From: [Limnothrix rosea] IAM M-220
GTDB lineage: Bacteria; Cyanobacteriota; Cyanobacteriia; Cyanobacteriales; MRBY01
Reading direction: 5' to 3'
NCBI RefSeq assembly: GCF_001904615.1
Contig: NZ_MRBY01000021.1
Coordinates: 1 to 62,553 of the forward strand
DNA: 62,553 nucleotides
The position numbers were made by a program, and so were the translations under genes. This document shows positions 35,834 to 41,300 of this stretch, piece after piece (within the stretch, counting starts at the first letter, position 1; every line of letters begins with the position of its first letter). The notes under the pieces were generated by a model, which worked only from the letters and a program-made list of their open reading frames with translations, made no database searches and was not told the origin of the DNA.

Positions 35834-36985
35834 TCACTGTTTCAAGAGCAAATAGAAAAGTTGCCCTTCATCATTGACAAGCCCTGCTTCTGTTTGGACA
35901 TTTACACCTGTGCCAAGGAAAATATCGACGCGACCTGCGCCTTTAATCGCGCTACCAGTGTCTTGGTCGAGGGCATAGAAATTTCGATCTAGCTTAATCC
36001 AGTCACCGTCATAGGTCGGGAAAGGTAACACGGTAGAAACTAGGGCGATCGCCCCCGGTGGCATGAGGGATTTATCAGTGGCAATGGAACGGTGGGCAGT
36101 TACGGGAACATTGAGGCTACCGATGGGTGGCGACCCAAAGGTTTCGCGGAAGAAAATAAAACGGTCATTGCGGGGAATATAGTCGCTAAGTTTTTCGGGA
36201 TTCGTTTCAAAGTAGTCGAGGAGCTTGGGCAAACTCAATTCTTCGGGTGCAAAAACACCGTCATTAATTAACTCTTTACCGAGGCTGACATAGTCATAAT
36301 CAGTGCTGCCATGGAAACCAACAGTCATAACTTTGCCATCGGGCAATTGAAGGCGAGCAGAACCTTGAACTTGTACTAGATAGGCTTCTAGGCGAGTGGG
36401 TAGCCAAACGAGTTCTTGTCCCAGCAATGGGCTATCGGCTGGCGCAACTCCATCGATGCCTTCTAATTCGGCGCGGGTGGGGTGAGGTAATTCCCATTGG
36501 TCAAAGGTGGAGGGTCGGCGGTAAATGGGATAGCGAAACTTGTCGGTGCGAACGGGACTGGCCTGATAAGACGGTTCAAAATAGGCGGTAAAGTCGACGG
36601 TTCCTAAACCATCTGTGCCGACAGATTGATAGAAATCAAATTCCTGCTGAATCTGCTGTTGTAAGGCGTTGGGATTATTGCTAGCCTGCACTAATTCTCG
36701 AAATCTGAGGAGCGATCGCCGCACATTATCGCGGGAAAATTTTGGCGGCAAGTCGAGTGTGGCATAATCCTCTGCTGATTTTGCCGTGTCGAGGTAGGTC
36801 AAACTGTGGTTAATGGACTCAATCAGTTGGGTTTTACTCTCGGCCTGCCAAAGGTCTAAATCTGTATAATCACTGGCTTCTAGCTCAACTTTTTCTAATA
36901 TCTGAGCCAAAACGGGATTTATCCCAGCCATTGCCCAGAAACATCCGGCGATCGCCGCCACCGTTAGCCAATTTCGTCCTATCAA
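35834..36985 (-). CDS. mltA: Membrane-bound lytic murein transglycosylase A (MltA)
   Basis: Peptidoglycan hydrolase cutting the glycan strand with formation of 1,6-anhydro-MurNAc. The 383-residue protein has a signal peptide (about 1-28, ending VLAQ), the MltA barrel (DFTAYFEPSYQASPVRTDKF near 130-150, QGSARLQLPDG) and the C-terminal 3D domain with its three aspartates in ALDQDTGSAIKGAGRVDIFLG. No lipobox cysteine is seen, so it is probably soluble periplasmic. The start appears to be TTG at 36985; a later ATG would remove the signal peptide. It is divergent from the Argonaute gene. Confidence 0.92.
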   Translation of the reverse strand: MIGRNWLTVAAIAGCFWAMAGINPVLAQILEKVELEASDYTDLDLWQAESKTQLIESINHSLTYLDTAKSAEDYATLDLPPKFSRDNVRRSLLRFRELVQASNNPNALQQQIQQEFDFYQSVGTDGLGTVDFTAYFEPSYQASPVRTDKFRYPIYRRPSTFDQWELPHPTRAELEGIDGVAPADSPLLGQELVWLPTRLEAYLVQVQGSARLQLPDGKVMTVGFHGSTDYDYVSLGKELINDGVFAPEELSLPKLLDYFETNPEKLSDYIPRNDRFIFFRETFGSPPIGSLNVPVTAHRSIATDKSLMPPGAIALVSTVLPFPTYDGDWIKLDRNFYALDQDTGSAIKGAGRVDIFLGTGVNVQTEAGLVNDEGQLFYLLLKQ

Positions 36986-37132
36986 CCCTTAAAATCTCCG
37001 CGTTCTTGAGTAATTCGTATCATAAGCCGACTGTTTCTACAGAAAAAATGTTTCCCATATCTTTACCAATCGCCTAAACCATCAATTAAACTGTAGCAAC
37101 TACACGTACATCACGTTTTTGCGCCTTATTTT

Positions 37133-39307
37133 ATGAGCCTGACTTTGTTTGCAGAGATTTTGCCCATTGACGTAACCGCATTACCACAGCTTTTCACTTA
37201 TCAAATCAACTTCACCGGGCAGGCTGATCGCAACCAAGTTGCAAGAAAATTACAATACAGACTCCTAACTGCATTTCGCGGATATTGGGTTTGGAGCAAA
37301 TCAGACCAAAAAATTATTGCTGATCGAAAAATTTCTCAGCCTCAACTACATAATGCACTGGAGCAGTTATGGCAAGATCAAAATGAAGATCTATTTCATC
37401 GATGCATTGACAGTATTCAATTCTCTCAAAACTATTTGATTACAAATCAAGGAATTGCCGATTTTGTATCACAAGGATTACTTCGTCATCATTACGCTCG
37501 GATTGTAGCAATATTAAAACAAAGTCAGCAGCAGAAAAATAGATATTCGATCAATATTGTCCATCAAATATATTCGTGGGTTGTCCATAGTCAGCCGGCA
37601 ATTTCACTATCCATTAAACAAGAAATTGACTATGGTGGCACATTAGCAAGTTATTTACAGAAAAATCCTGATATTCAAAATATCAAAGGATTGCATGTCT
37701 TAGATATAACCAAACCTTCCTTTAATAACGCTATGGAAATTAAAAAGGTAATTGGCAGACTGGGAGAAGGAAATACAAGACAAAGATTATTATCTCAAAC
37801 TAGAAATCCAGCAATGCAGGAAATGATTAAAGAGGCTCCCAATCAAGAAGTCATTGTCGAAGTAGGAAATGCTGGCTACCACTACATTTCCAGCGCTCTT
37901 AAAATTAGAGTTTTAAACCGTGATTATGAAAGGTTTGGTATACGAGAACGGTTACAAATACCATCGGATGAACGTATAAAATACCTTAAGCCTGCAATGG
38001 ATTTTGTGCAGAACTTAAACTATTTACAAAGAGCATATAACTCAAGAAGCAACAATTGTTTCATTATGCCGCATCAAAGCTGGGGACATGACCTTGACTT
38101 ATTATTTGGAAGCAATCATGTAATTCAAGCTTCACAAGCTAGCAAAAAGCTGCAAACAATTAAAAATTATGGTGAATATAGAAAAACTGGCAAGGAAGTA
38201 ATCAGCATTTCTATTCTAAACTGTACAGGGAAGGATTACAGCAAAAATACTGGTGACAGTCTAAATAATCTGTATAGATTTCGTGATGCTCTCAAAAAGA
38301 ATTTTCACCCAGATGTAACGAAAAGAAGACTCCCTTATAAGTTGAAGTTAGTAGAACAAATAGATTTGAACAGTAAACAATGTTCTCGAACAGAAATTTC
38401 ACAAGTAGTTTCTAAGTTAGCAGTTAATCAGCCTGATATTGTTCTTTGTTTAATGCCCAAAGGTGCATCGTATGATATTACTGACAGAACGTTATACGAC
38501 GACCTAAAGCAATTTTTCTTGCAGAATAATTTACAGTCTCAAATGATTCGTGAAGAGACTCTTTATAACTTTAATTATAAGCTTGACAATATCATTTTAG
38601 GTGTCATGGCAAAAGTTGGCAGCGTGCCTTATATTTTGGCAAATCCGTTGGAATATACGGATTTAATTGTGGGTTTGGATGTGTCTCGTCGTCGCAAGAA
38701 AAATAATCAAGGAACTAACAGTGTCGCTGCCATGACTCGTATTTATACTAATCAAGGGGAATTGGTTCACTATAGTATTCGTGACGCTGTAATTGATGGA
38801 GAAATTCTGCCGGAACACATTCTTTATGATTTGTTTCCTGCTGAAGAGTTTGGAGGGAAACACATTCTTATTCATCGTGATGGCTTGTTTCCTGAAAATG
38901 AGCGGTTAACACTAGATAAAATTGGCGCTGAAATCAAAGCAAGGTTCAATTATGTGTCTGTTATTAAGAGTGGTAATCCGAGACTATATGGCATACGTAA
39001 TCAGCAAGTGGGGAAAGCACCAAAAGGAAGCATTTTTCAAATATCAGATAGAGAAGCATTTGTTGTTAGTTCTGAATTTCCTGATGGTTTTAAAGCGACG
39101 CCTCAACCTCTTCGGGTAGAAACATTTGATGGTTTTTCTTTACAGCACGCTGTGCATTCGGTGTTGTCATTGACTTATTTGCATTATGGTTCTGAGCGAT
39201 CGCCTCGATTGCCTGTCAGTACTTACTATGCGGACAAAATTTCCACAATGGCTTCTAAAGGAATTAAGCCTCGTGATCCAGATGGTAATTTACCGTTTTG
39301 GCTGTAG
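37133..39307 (+). CDS. ago: Long prokaryotic Argonaute, predicted catalytically active
   Basis: A 724-residue pAgo, probably a DNA-guided nuclease. The MID domain keeps the full 5'-phosphate pocket: Y455, K459, Q470 and K494, with the same spacing (4, 11, 24) as R418/K422/Q433/K457 of Thermus TtAgo. The PIWI domain has a complete DEDD tetrad: D516 in VGLDVSR, E557 in DGEILPE, D583 in HRDG and D701 in YYADKIS. The N and PAZ-like parts (about 1-300, with GYHYISSALKIRV) are present, so it is a long pAgo. Characterised cyanobacterial relatives are SeAgo and LrAgo. No helicase, nuclease or Cas gene flanks it. The gene is AT-rich with only one HIP1 site (39197), suggesting acquisition by transfer. 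Confidence 0.95.
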   Translation: MSLTLFAEILPIDVTALPQLFTYQINFTGQADRNQVARKLQYRLLTAFRGYWVWSKSDQKIIADRKISQPQLHNALEQLWQDQNEDLFHRCIDSIQFSQNYLITNQGIADFVSQGLLRHHYARIVAILKQSQQQKNRYSINIVHQIYSWVVHSQPAISLSIKQEIDYGGTLASYLQKNPDIQNIKGLHVLDITKPSFNNAMEIKKVIGRLGEGNTRQRLLSQTRNPAMQEMIKEAPNQEVIVEVGNAGYHYISSALKIRVLNRDYERFGIRERLQIPSDERIKYLKPAMDFVQNLNYLQRAYNSRSNNCFIMPHQSWGHDLDLLFGSNHVIQASQASKKLQTIKNYGEYRKTGKEVISISILNCTGKDYSKNTGDSLNNLYRFRDALKKNFHPDVTKRRLPYKLKLVEQIDLNSKQCSRTEISQVVSKLAVNQPDIVLCLMPKGASYDITDRTLYDDLKQFFLQNNLQSQMIREETLYNFNYKLDNIILGVMAKVGSVPYILANPLEYTDLIVGLDVSRRRKKNNQGTNSVAAMTRIYTNQGELVHYSIRDAVIDGEILPEHILYDLFPAEEFGGKHILIHRDGLFPENERLTLDKIGAEIKARFNYVSVIKSGNPRLYGIRNQQVGKAPKGSIFQISDREAFVVSSEFPDGFKATPQPLRVETFDGFSLQHAVHSVLSLTYLHYGSERSPRLPVSTYYADKISTMASKGIKPRDPDGNLPFWL

Positions 39308-39342
39308 GTACTTAAGTTGGTCGAGCGATAGTTACTTATGGG

Positions 39343-39549
39343 GAGGCGATCGCCCTCTCTGAGACTTGTTGGAGACAAAATGTAAGAGCTAAAACATTCA
39401 TTTCTGCTGAATTGGCAGATGGCTTATTGCCCACTTTGGTTGACCAAGTATTTGAGGGAATCGAATCTCTATTGGAAGCGATGTGATTTATAGAAGCAAA
39501 TGAAGCTCAAGGTAAAATCGTAATCTTGGTCACTGTTGAATCGCTTTAA
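39343..39549 (+). pseudogene. Quinone oxidoreductase-like (MDR family) C-terminal remnant
   Basis: One frame reads EAIALSETCWRQNVRAKTFI, then ELADGLLPTLVDQVF, a TGA stop at 39484, and continues FIEANEAQGKIVILV to a TAA at 39547. This follows the C-terminal pattern of zinc-type or quinone oxidoreductases (..IALT..F.....ADG.L.PVID.VFPLEEA.EAHRYMEAN...GKIVL). Only about 67 codons remain and a stop interrupts them. No other gene is visible between the Argonaute and the pentapeptide gene (39308-39639). Confidence 0.6.
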
Positions 39550-39639
39550 TTGCAGGCGATCGCCCATATATTTAATCAGCAAAAAACGGATCGAGCAGTG
39601 ACTCAATCCGTTTGGGAAAATAATTTTATATCAAGGTTT

Positions 39640-40137
39640 CTAGCAACCGAGAGAATCCGCTGTCGCAATACCAGTCACAGGATTCACCCCAGTCGCCGCC
39701 GCACAAAGTTTCTTTTGCTGAGTACCATCAAGAACCGCAAAACTAAAATCAGCGCCATCAATATTTGCACCATCGAAGGTCGAACGCAGGAGAATAGCCT
39801 CCTCGAAAATAGCACCAGACAAATCAGCGTCAGTAAACTTCGTCAGATAGGCAATACCATTAGTCATATTTGCGCCATGTAAATCAGCATTTTGTAGCTG
39901 ACAACTATTAAAAACAGCCCCTCGCAAATCCGTCTCACTTAAATCCGCATTACGAAAATTCACCTCAGTAAATTCAGCCCCCTGGAAACTTTCCCCAGCA
40001 AAATTTTCATTAGCAAAATCTTCACTATCGATCGCCGAACGCGAAGTCGCCGCTGGACTCGATGCATAGGCAGGAGATCCAACAAATAAACATAACACCA
40101 TCAAAGATAAACATGCGATTCGCACTAAAACCTTCAT
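39640..40137 (-). CDS. Exported pentapeptide-repeat protein
   Basis: A 165-residue protein with a signal peptide (about 1-25, ending PAYASS) and a right-handed beta-helix of A(D/N)LXX-type repeats (FRNADLSETDLRGAVF, LQNADLHGANMTNG, FTDADLSGAIFEEA, FDGANIDGADF). It ends with two cysteines that could pair. Such small lumenal or periplasmic pentapeptide proteins are common in cyanobacteria. I chose the ATG at 40137 (MKVLVRIACL), preceded by GAGGG; the upstream alternative start adds six residues. It is divergent from trpD. Confidence 0.88.
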   Translation of the reverse strand: MKVLVRIACLSLMVLCLFVGSPAYASSPAATSRSAIDSEDFANENFAGESFQGAEFTEVNFRNADLSETDLRGAVFNSCQLQNADLHGANMTNGIAYLTKFTDADLSGAIFEEAILLRSTFDGANIDGADFSFAVLDGTQQKKLCAAATGVNPVTGIATADSLGC

Positions 40138-40262
40138 AACCCTCAAATTGCCCATTGCCTAAAAGAACCTTTTTCAAGGCATATTCTAAAAGATTCTCGG
40201 AATGACTGGGAATTCCGATAAAGTTTTTGGAGAGAATAAATTTTTTTGCTTGCGTTTTTGCC

Positions 40263-41300
40263 ATGACAACAACCAATTGGACAGACTTTCTTACACAGCT
40301 CATCGAAGGGATTTCCCTCGACCAAGAGCAAGCACGTACTTTGATGACAGGCTGGCTCAACGAAGAGATTTCACCGATTTTGTCGGGGGCAATTTTAGCG
40401 GCGATCCAAACGAAAGGAGTTTCGGCAGACGAGCTAACAGGGATGGCGAGGGTTTTAAAATCTCAATCGCTACAACAGGAAACGCTCAATCATAATCAGC
40501 CCGTTGTGGATACCTGCGGTACGGGTGGTGATGGTTCTTCGACCTTTAATATCTCCACGGCTGTGGCCTTTGTCACGGCTGCGGCAGGGGTAAAAGTCGC
40601 GAAACACGGTAATCGTTCGGCTTCAAGTAAGGTTGGTTCGGCGGATGTGTTGGAAGCTTTAGGTGTGGATTTGGGTGCGCCTAGCGAAAAAGTGGCTGCG
40701 GCTCTAAATGAAGTAGGTATTACGTTCCTATTTGCGCGGGGCTGGCATCCAGCCATGAAGGCAGTGGCTCCGATTCGTCAGGAAATGAAAATCCGCACAG
40801 TGTTTAATTTGCTTGGCCCTTTGGTGAATCCGCTGCAACCCACTGGGCAAATTATTGGTGTCTATGATCCGAAATTTATCGAACGGATGGCGATCGCCCT
40901 CCAGCAGCTAGGCACAACAAAAGCAATGGTGCTCCATGGTCGCGAGAAACTTGATGAAGCAGGCTTAGGCGATTTAACAGATTTGACGGCGGTGAATGGC
41001 AATGACGTAAAAACCATCACCCTCGATCCCAAAGAATTAGGTTTAACCTCTGTTCCCCTCGCAGACTTGAAAGGTGGCGATATTCCTGTTAACCAAGAAA
41101 TTCTTACTAACGTCCTCCAAGGTAAAGCGACAAAAGCCCAAACCGATGTGGTGGCGCTTAATGCATCCCTTGCCCTTCAGGTTGCGGGTTCCGTTGAATG
41201 GGGAAATCATGCCGCAGGTATCGCCAAAGCAAAAGAAGTCATTGCCAGTGGCGCAGCGTGGGACAAACTTCAGGCTCTTGTGAGTTTTCTAAAAGCGTAG
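40263..41300 (+). CDS. trpD: Anthranilate phosphoribosyltransferase
   Basis: Tryptophan pathway enzyme joining anthranilate and PRPP. Motifs: the PRPP-binding [37 protein letters not shown], and the anthranilate/metal region [15 protein letters not shown]. The 345-residue length from ATG 40263 ([10 protein letters not shown]) is normal; the frame is open from 40227 but lacks family resemblance there. No other trp gene lies nearby, as usual in cyanobacteria where trp genes are scattered. Confidence 0.96.

Follow-up and report, generated by a model that had tools for sequence, protein, structure and literature searches.

The locus examined here raises two questions: whether the long prokaryotic Argonaute (pAgo) gene that it carries encodes a new nuclease, and what such a nuclease would do in its own cell. 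The gene lies in a stretch of 62,553 nucleotides from [Limnothrix rosea] IAM M-220 (contig NZ_MRBY01000021.1), which is referred to as the window. We consider it highly probable that the gene encodes LrAgo, the long active pAgo of this very strain, an assignment that comes from the strain and not from an LrAgo sequence. The Argonaute itself has thus most likely been described before, and only its genome context is added here.

The gene, its protein and the conserved residues

The gene (ago) is an open reading frame of 724 codons for amino acids that runs from an ATG start to a TAG stop. The one reverse frame translated across the region is full of stops, and the ORF list of the window holds no other ORF of at least 80 amino acids inside ago. 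The gene and its landmarks are as follows.

37133..39307, forward strand: ago, long prokaryotic Argonaute, most likely LrAgo (intact ORF, 724 aa, matches in Pfam, PADLOC and PDB, modelled fold)
38489..39265, forward strand: Pfam Piwi match (residues 453-711, E 8.7e-19)
38678..38680, forward strand: codon of catalytic D516 (D in 72 of 72 aligned proteins)
38801..38803, forward strand: codon of catalytic E557 (E in 72 of 72)
38879..38881, forward strand: codon of catalytic D583 (D in 72 of 72)
39233..39235, forward strand: codon of catalytic D701 (D in 63, H in 8 and a gap in 1 of 72)

The PADLOC pAgo model PDLC02396 scores the protein at 1045 bits, and phmmer finds 15 distinct PDB sequences at E up to 1, the best being 9iad (E 4.9e-61), which is Chroococcidiopsis thermalis CtAgo by its title in the fold search; an NCBIfam search returned no match up to E 1. 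The Pfam, PADLOC and PDB matches lie well outside what chance would give. A new kind of Argonaute was considered and rejected, with PDLC02396 giving 1103, 1026 and 1034 bits for the Argonautes of three other genomes (G002, G045 and G010, respectively).

An alignment-based scan yielded 94 relatives, the best 80 of which were analysed. A structural model was predicted from 30 aligned sequences (alignment A2, the window protein with 29 of the 80 related loci) and has a mean pLDDT of 82.4, with weak stretches at residues 395-398, 524-526 and 685-699. In the fold search it aligns with full-length Argonautes across residues 1-724, with Z scores of 33.8 for 9iad and 32.3 for CbAgo, and the protein is predicted to have the full-length N-PAZ-MID-PIWI fold of a long Argonaute.

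The earlier note had described an intact catalytic tetrad and 5'-phosphate pocket, and all eight residues are indeed found where it placed them in the translation, namely D516, E557, D583 and D701 in PIWI and Y455, K459, Q470 and K494 in MID. The pocket was also said to be spaced as R418/K422/Q433/K457 of TtAgo, here the Thermus thermophilus Argonaute from a plasmid record. This was borne out in that seven of the eight residues align with TtAgo columns K422/Q433/K457/D478/E512/D546/D660, three of them in the pocket, whereas Y455 lies opposite a gap and is matched to R418 only through a common offset of 37 in residue number. The DEDX tetrad of the window protein sits in the TtAgo tetrad columns.

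Residue conservation was counted, and a FastTree tree was built, over 72 proteins, comprising the window's own, those of three of the searched genomes and 68 of the 80 loci; the other 12 lack an intact frame of at least 650 amino acids and were left out of both. Columns 516, 557, 583, 455, 470 and 494 are invariant over this set. Column 459 holds K in 14 proteins, Y in 44 and S in 14, so the pocket lysine at this position is not general. Lysine is restricted there to an 11-member clade and three Microcystis-type loci, the other 58 proteins having Y or S.

On this anatomy, a small DNA guide would be held by its 5'-phosphate end in the MID pocket and pair with complementary DNA, whose paired strand would be cut at the DEDD site of PIWI; the result would be guide-directed nicking of matching DNA by an Argonaute that probably acts alone. 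In its own host, LrAgo may work alone on DNA fragments that come from host nucleases. The earlier note's view of an active guide-directed nuclease that acts against plasmids or phages, or helps replication, stands only in part: residues, predicted fold and neighbourhood fit an active-looking stand-alone long pAgo well, but nothing in the window shows either native role. A literature search found no text that joins LrAgo with D516A.

Identity with LrAgo and distribution of relatives

LrAgo reportedly goes back to Kuzmenko et al. 2019. The earlier suggestion that the protein may be LrAgo itself proved to be the best reading, resting on the same strain, a single Argonaute in the genome and a compatible identity to TtAgo. 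Pfam Piwi and protein searches of the host genome (4,065,636 bases in 92 contigs) together count one Argonaute; the Pfam search alone could overlook divergent Argonautes, since the Piwi control was silent in a Synechococcus elongatus control genome. The MID-PIWI regions of the window protein and TtAgo are 24.1-28.0% identical, a value that varies with the method and bounds chosen and is not specific to LrAgo, and the figure given for LrAgo in the available portion of the published account is 25.8% (PMC10269773). By the earlier note's own rule, under which identity above 95% to a characterised Argonaute denies novelty, the window protein, being most likely LrAgo, would therefore not be new.

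That the gene instead encodes a near relative of LrAgo, from a different strain of this group and hence a new member with the same mechanism, is very unlikely. Such a reading draws on the fact that the identity with LrAgo was taken from the strain and not read from a sequence, and on the Argonaute of a genus-mate (G002), which is only 54% identical, so that Argonautes within the genus differ a good deal. On the other hand, the host genome agrees with the published IAM M-220 assembly. This strain, placed in Picosynechococcus in the NCBI taxonomy, has also been published as Oscillatoria rosea NIES-208, with a 4.0 Mb draft under MRBY (PMC5334580). The accessible part of a further study gives its 16S as 99% similar to that of Leptolyngbya sp. 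PCC 7376 and locates an olefin-synthase-type gene, NIES208_12590, on contig MRBY01000033 (PMC6256058). The host analysed here encodes an olefin-synthase-type protein of 2741 amino acids with AMP-binding, ACP, KS, AT, KR, sulfotransferase and hydrolase domains. LrAgo thus remains the preferred identity.

Argonaute matches were found in 18 of 60 genomes searched, the host's own included, and alignment A1 combined the window protein with 12 of that search's 20 other hits. Within the genus, a full-length ago is present in two of six genomes (the host and G002), a 27-residue fragment in G005 and none in the remaining three. Across the phylum, matches at E 1e-70 or better occur in 3 of 386 genomes, again including the host. 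A separate single-protein scan of genome contigs confirmed 0 of 41 candidates. The top relatives among the best 80 of 94 come from Poribacteria (41 and 39% identity), Thiospirillum jenense (39%), two Pseudanabaena (37 and 35%), a Chloroflexi MAG (33%) and Phormidium tenue FACHB-1050 (33%). Eleven proteins, including the window's, form one clade with support of 1.0 under midpoint rooting, thinly scattered over several phyla, and DEDD together with Y/K/Q/K is kept in all eleven.

The genomic site and the search for partners

A comparison with the genus-mate G005 delimits the DNA that carries ago.

35834..36985, reverse strand: left flank, MltA/3D-domain protein (86% identical in G005)
37040..39639, no strand: insert of about 2.6 kb with ago, absent at the matching G005 site (left edge uncertain by about 10 bases)
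39385..39546, forward strand: relic of a zinc-binding dehydrogenase C-terminus with one in-frame TGA (PF13602, E 6.4e-4, 21.1 bits against a cut-off of 27)
39640..40155, reverse strand: right flank, pentapeptide-repeat protein (86% identical in G005)
40227..41300, forward strand: right flank, trpD-type glycosyl transferase family 3 protein (93% identical in G005)

DNA similarity between the window and G005 ends near 37039 and restarts at 39640, with about 120 bases of other DNA between these points in G005. The flanking genes are collinear there, with no ago between them, and the nearest three are 86, 86 and 93% identical. The insert has a GC content of 37.2% vs 46.5% for the rest of the contig, and none of 300 windows of 2.6 kb is lower. 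No counterpart of the dehydrogenase relic was found in the five other genomes of the genus, and the ago of G002 lies at a different place, between other genes. Overall, ago looks horizontally gained, apparently as an insert of one gene into the host chromosome. The insert's history is most simply read as a gain in the lineage of the window, with loss from the site in G005 as a possible alternative.

In G005, a C-terminal ago remnant of 27 residues, 70% identical and spanning the position of D701, was observed (L028:9949-10176; G005:C1:2127578-2127658). It adjoins three transposase genes and lies about 178 kb from the empty ago site. In G010, which branches early in the clade, ago and a trpD-type gene are immediate neighbours on opposite strands (L030:9245-12631). 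A trpD-type gene also lies two genes downstream of ago in the window (37133-41300), and the likeness is possibly due to chance.

A phage origin was tried and rejected, with 0 of 32 viral-contig candidates confirmed; one record in a phage collection aligns with 53% of the query protein (27.5% identity, E 1e-22). A plasmid origin was likewise rejected, as 27 records match and none covers more than 80% of the query. No RNA genes were found in the window at ARAGORN or Rfam gathering thresholds.

The nearest neighbours of ago are the MltA-family, pentapeptide-repeat and trpD-type genes. The claim that ago stands alone, with no helicase, nuclease or Cas partner beside it, holds as tested, since PADLOC models match 0 of 8 ago neighbours, a set without the trpD-type gene. 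An all-against-all comparison of flanking ORFs, whose flank lengths differ between loci, gave no partner gene common to the 11 clade loci. What it did return was one adjacent two-gene pair (L089 and L091), seven matches between two loci, and a single chained group, represented in 6 of 11 loci, that consists, by Pfam, of two-component, GGDEF and EAL signalling proteins of varied make-up; this group is not read as an Argonaute partner because it is a common class.

Of the 10 other clade loci, four have toxin-antitoxin genes close to ago (L089, L091, L085 and L088), a raw count that serves as a lead; none were seen by eye in L027, L029, L030, L086, L087 and L090. Immediately downstream of ago, genes for a 73-aa protein without a firm Pfam family and a PIN_3 protein form a pair in a Pseudanabaena MAG (L089:10171-10801) and in Phormidium tenue FACHB-1050 (L091:10204-10828), two loci with otherwise different surroundings. 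Upstream of ago, a BrnT toxin gene was observed in a Poribacteria MAG (L085:1973-2468), and a RelB-like/ParE-type pair in Pseudanabaena sp. UWO311 (L088:6897-7401).

Native role and comparison with known Argonautes

The published evidence on LrAgo, as far as the available portions of two reports go, comes from Escherichia coli and in vitro work (PMC10269773; PMC10992608). In vitro, LrAgo cuts DNA under the direction of DNA guides and is most active at 50-55 C, and its cutting of plasmid targets is limited to low GC (PMC10992608, in part). In E. coli, according to the accessible text, its guides are about 14-19 nt long and plasmid DNA is favoured 3- to 9-fold; it loads DNA of the ter region and aids cell division under ciprofloxacin, for which RecA and RecBCD are needed (PMC10269773).

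The host differs from E. coli in ways that bear on these guides. RecC has no match in the host genome, E. coli alone being positive among 14 controls. Two UvrD-type helicases are encoded, PcrA and a 748-aa protein, and neither comes near the recB or addA cut-offs, the latter being far below them, in a comparison that covered RecC, RecB and AddA. The C-terminal half of the 748-aa protein (G000:C19:41488-42369, L167) shows RecB-like similarity that stays under all the curated cut-offs listed. As to topoisomerases, one GyrA and a second GyrA/ParC-type subunit are present. Because RecC has no match here, the RecBCD-shaped guide pattern reported in E. coli may not carry over to the native host.

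Defence against mobile DNA is probably the likelier native role, since ago is patchy and transferable. A role mainly in chromosome replication and decatenation, as proposed for TtAgo, appears unlikely, even though the ter loading and the help under ciprofloxacin seen in E. coli (PMC10269773, available portion) would suit it and ago sits among ordinary chromosomal genes. The gene is dispensable, as a full-length copy occurs in just 2 of the 6 genomes in the genus; the E. coli effect needs RecBCD, and in the host RecC has no match and no helicase approaches the recB or addA cut-offs; furthermore, the two GyrA/ParC-type subunits here contrast with the single type II topoisomerase of T. thermophilus, as stated in the accessible part of the same report (PMC10269773). 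That ago is decaying or silent cargo with no present function is most improbable. The adjoining pseudogene relic, the G005 remnant among transposase genes and the 12 of 80 related loci without an intact frame of at least 650 amino acids, some of which owe this to contig or match ends, point in that direction, but the window's frame is full-length with every catalytic and pocket residue kept, and the same residues persist in 11 of 11 clade members.

Defence thus being the preferred role, a wider proposal may be put forward, although we regard it as rather doubtful as a whole: native guides would arise without RecBCD or AddAB, the ter/Chi pattern would be imposed by E. coli, and the clade would represent a lone nuclease gene that spreads between phyla, in some cases next to toxin-antitoxin modules, and that natively defends against mobile DNA. 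If the protein is already characterised as LrAgo, the Argonaute find adds little. What the locus offers is a context of use, namely a stand-alone Argonaute, apparently horizontally gained, whose site is empty in a genus-mate and whose host lacks a RecC match, and this setting makes the native guide source and the effect on plasmids directly testable.

Among known systems, short pAgo systems (SPARTA, SPARSA and the like) and pAgos with a partner were considered and rejected, given the intact tetrad and the 0 of 8 neighbours matching PADLOC. LrAgo is probably the same protein, by strain, single Argonaute and a compatible but unspecific TtAgo identity, with no known difference. CtAgo (9iad), the best solved relative, shares the DEDD tetrad and aligns with Z 33.8 over 643 residues, but is only 26% identical; it is of the cyanobacterial type in which column 459 is mostly Y or S, CtAgo itself being outside the 72-protein alignment. 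CbAgo (Clostridium butyricum, 6qzk), a mesophilic long pAgo, aligns with Z 32.3 over 659 residues at 19% identity. SeAgo (Synechococcus elongatus), likewise a long and active cyanobacterial nuclease that cuts DNA with DNA guides, has the effects in E. coli that are reported for LrAgo, and its MID-PIWI region is 35.7% identical to that of TtAgo vs 25.8% for LrAgo by the published values (PMC10269773, in part). TtAgo shares seven of the eight tetrad and pocket columns with the window protein, with a structural match of Z about 28 and MID-PIWI identity of about 24-28%, and its host is described in the available text as having the RecBCD homologue AddAB and gyrase only (PMC10269773).
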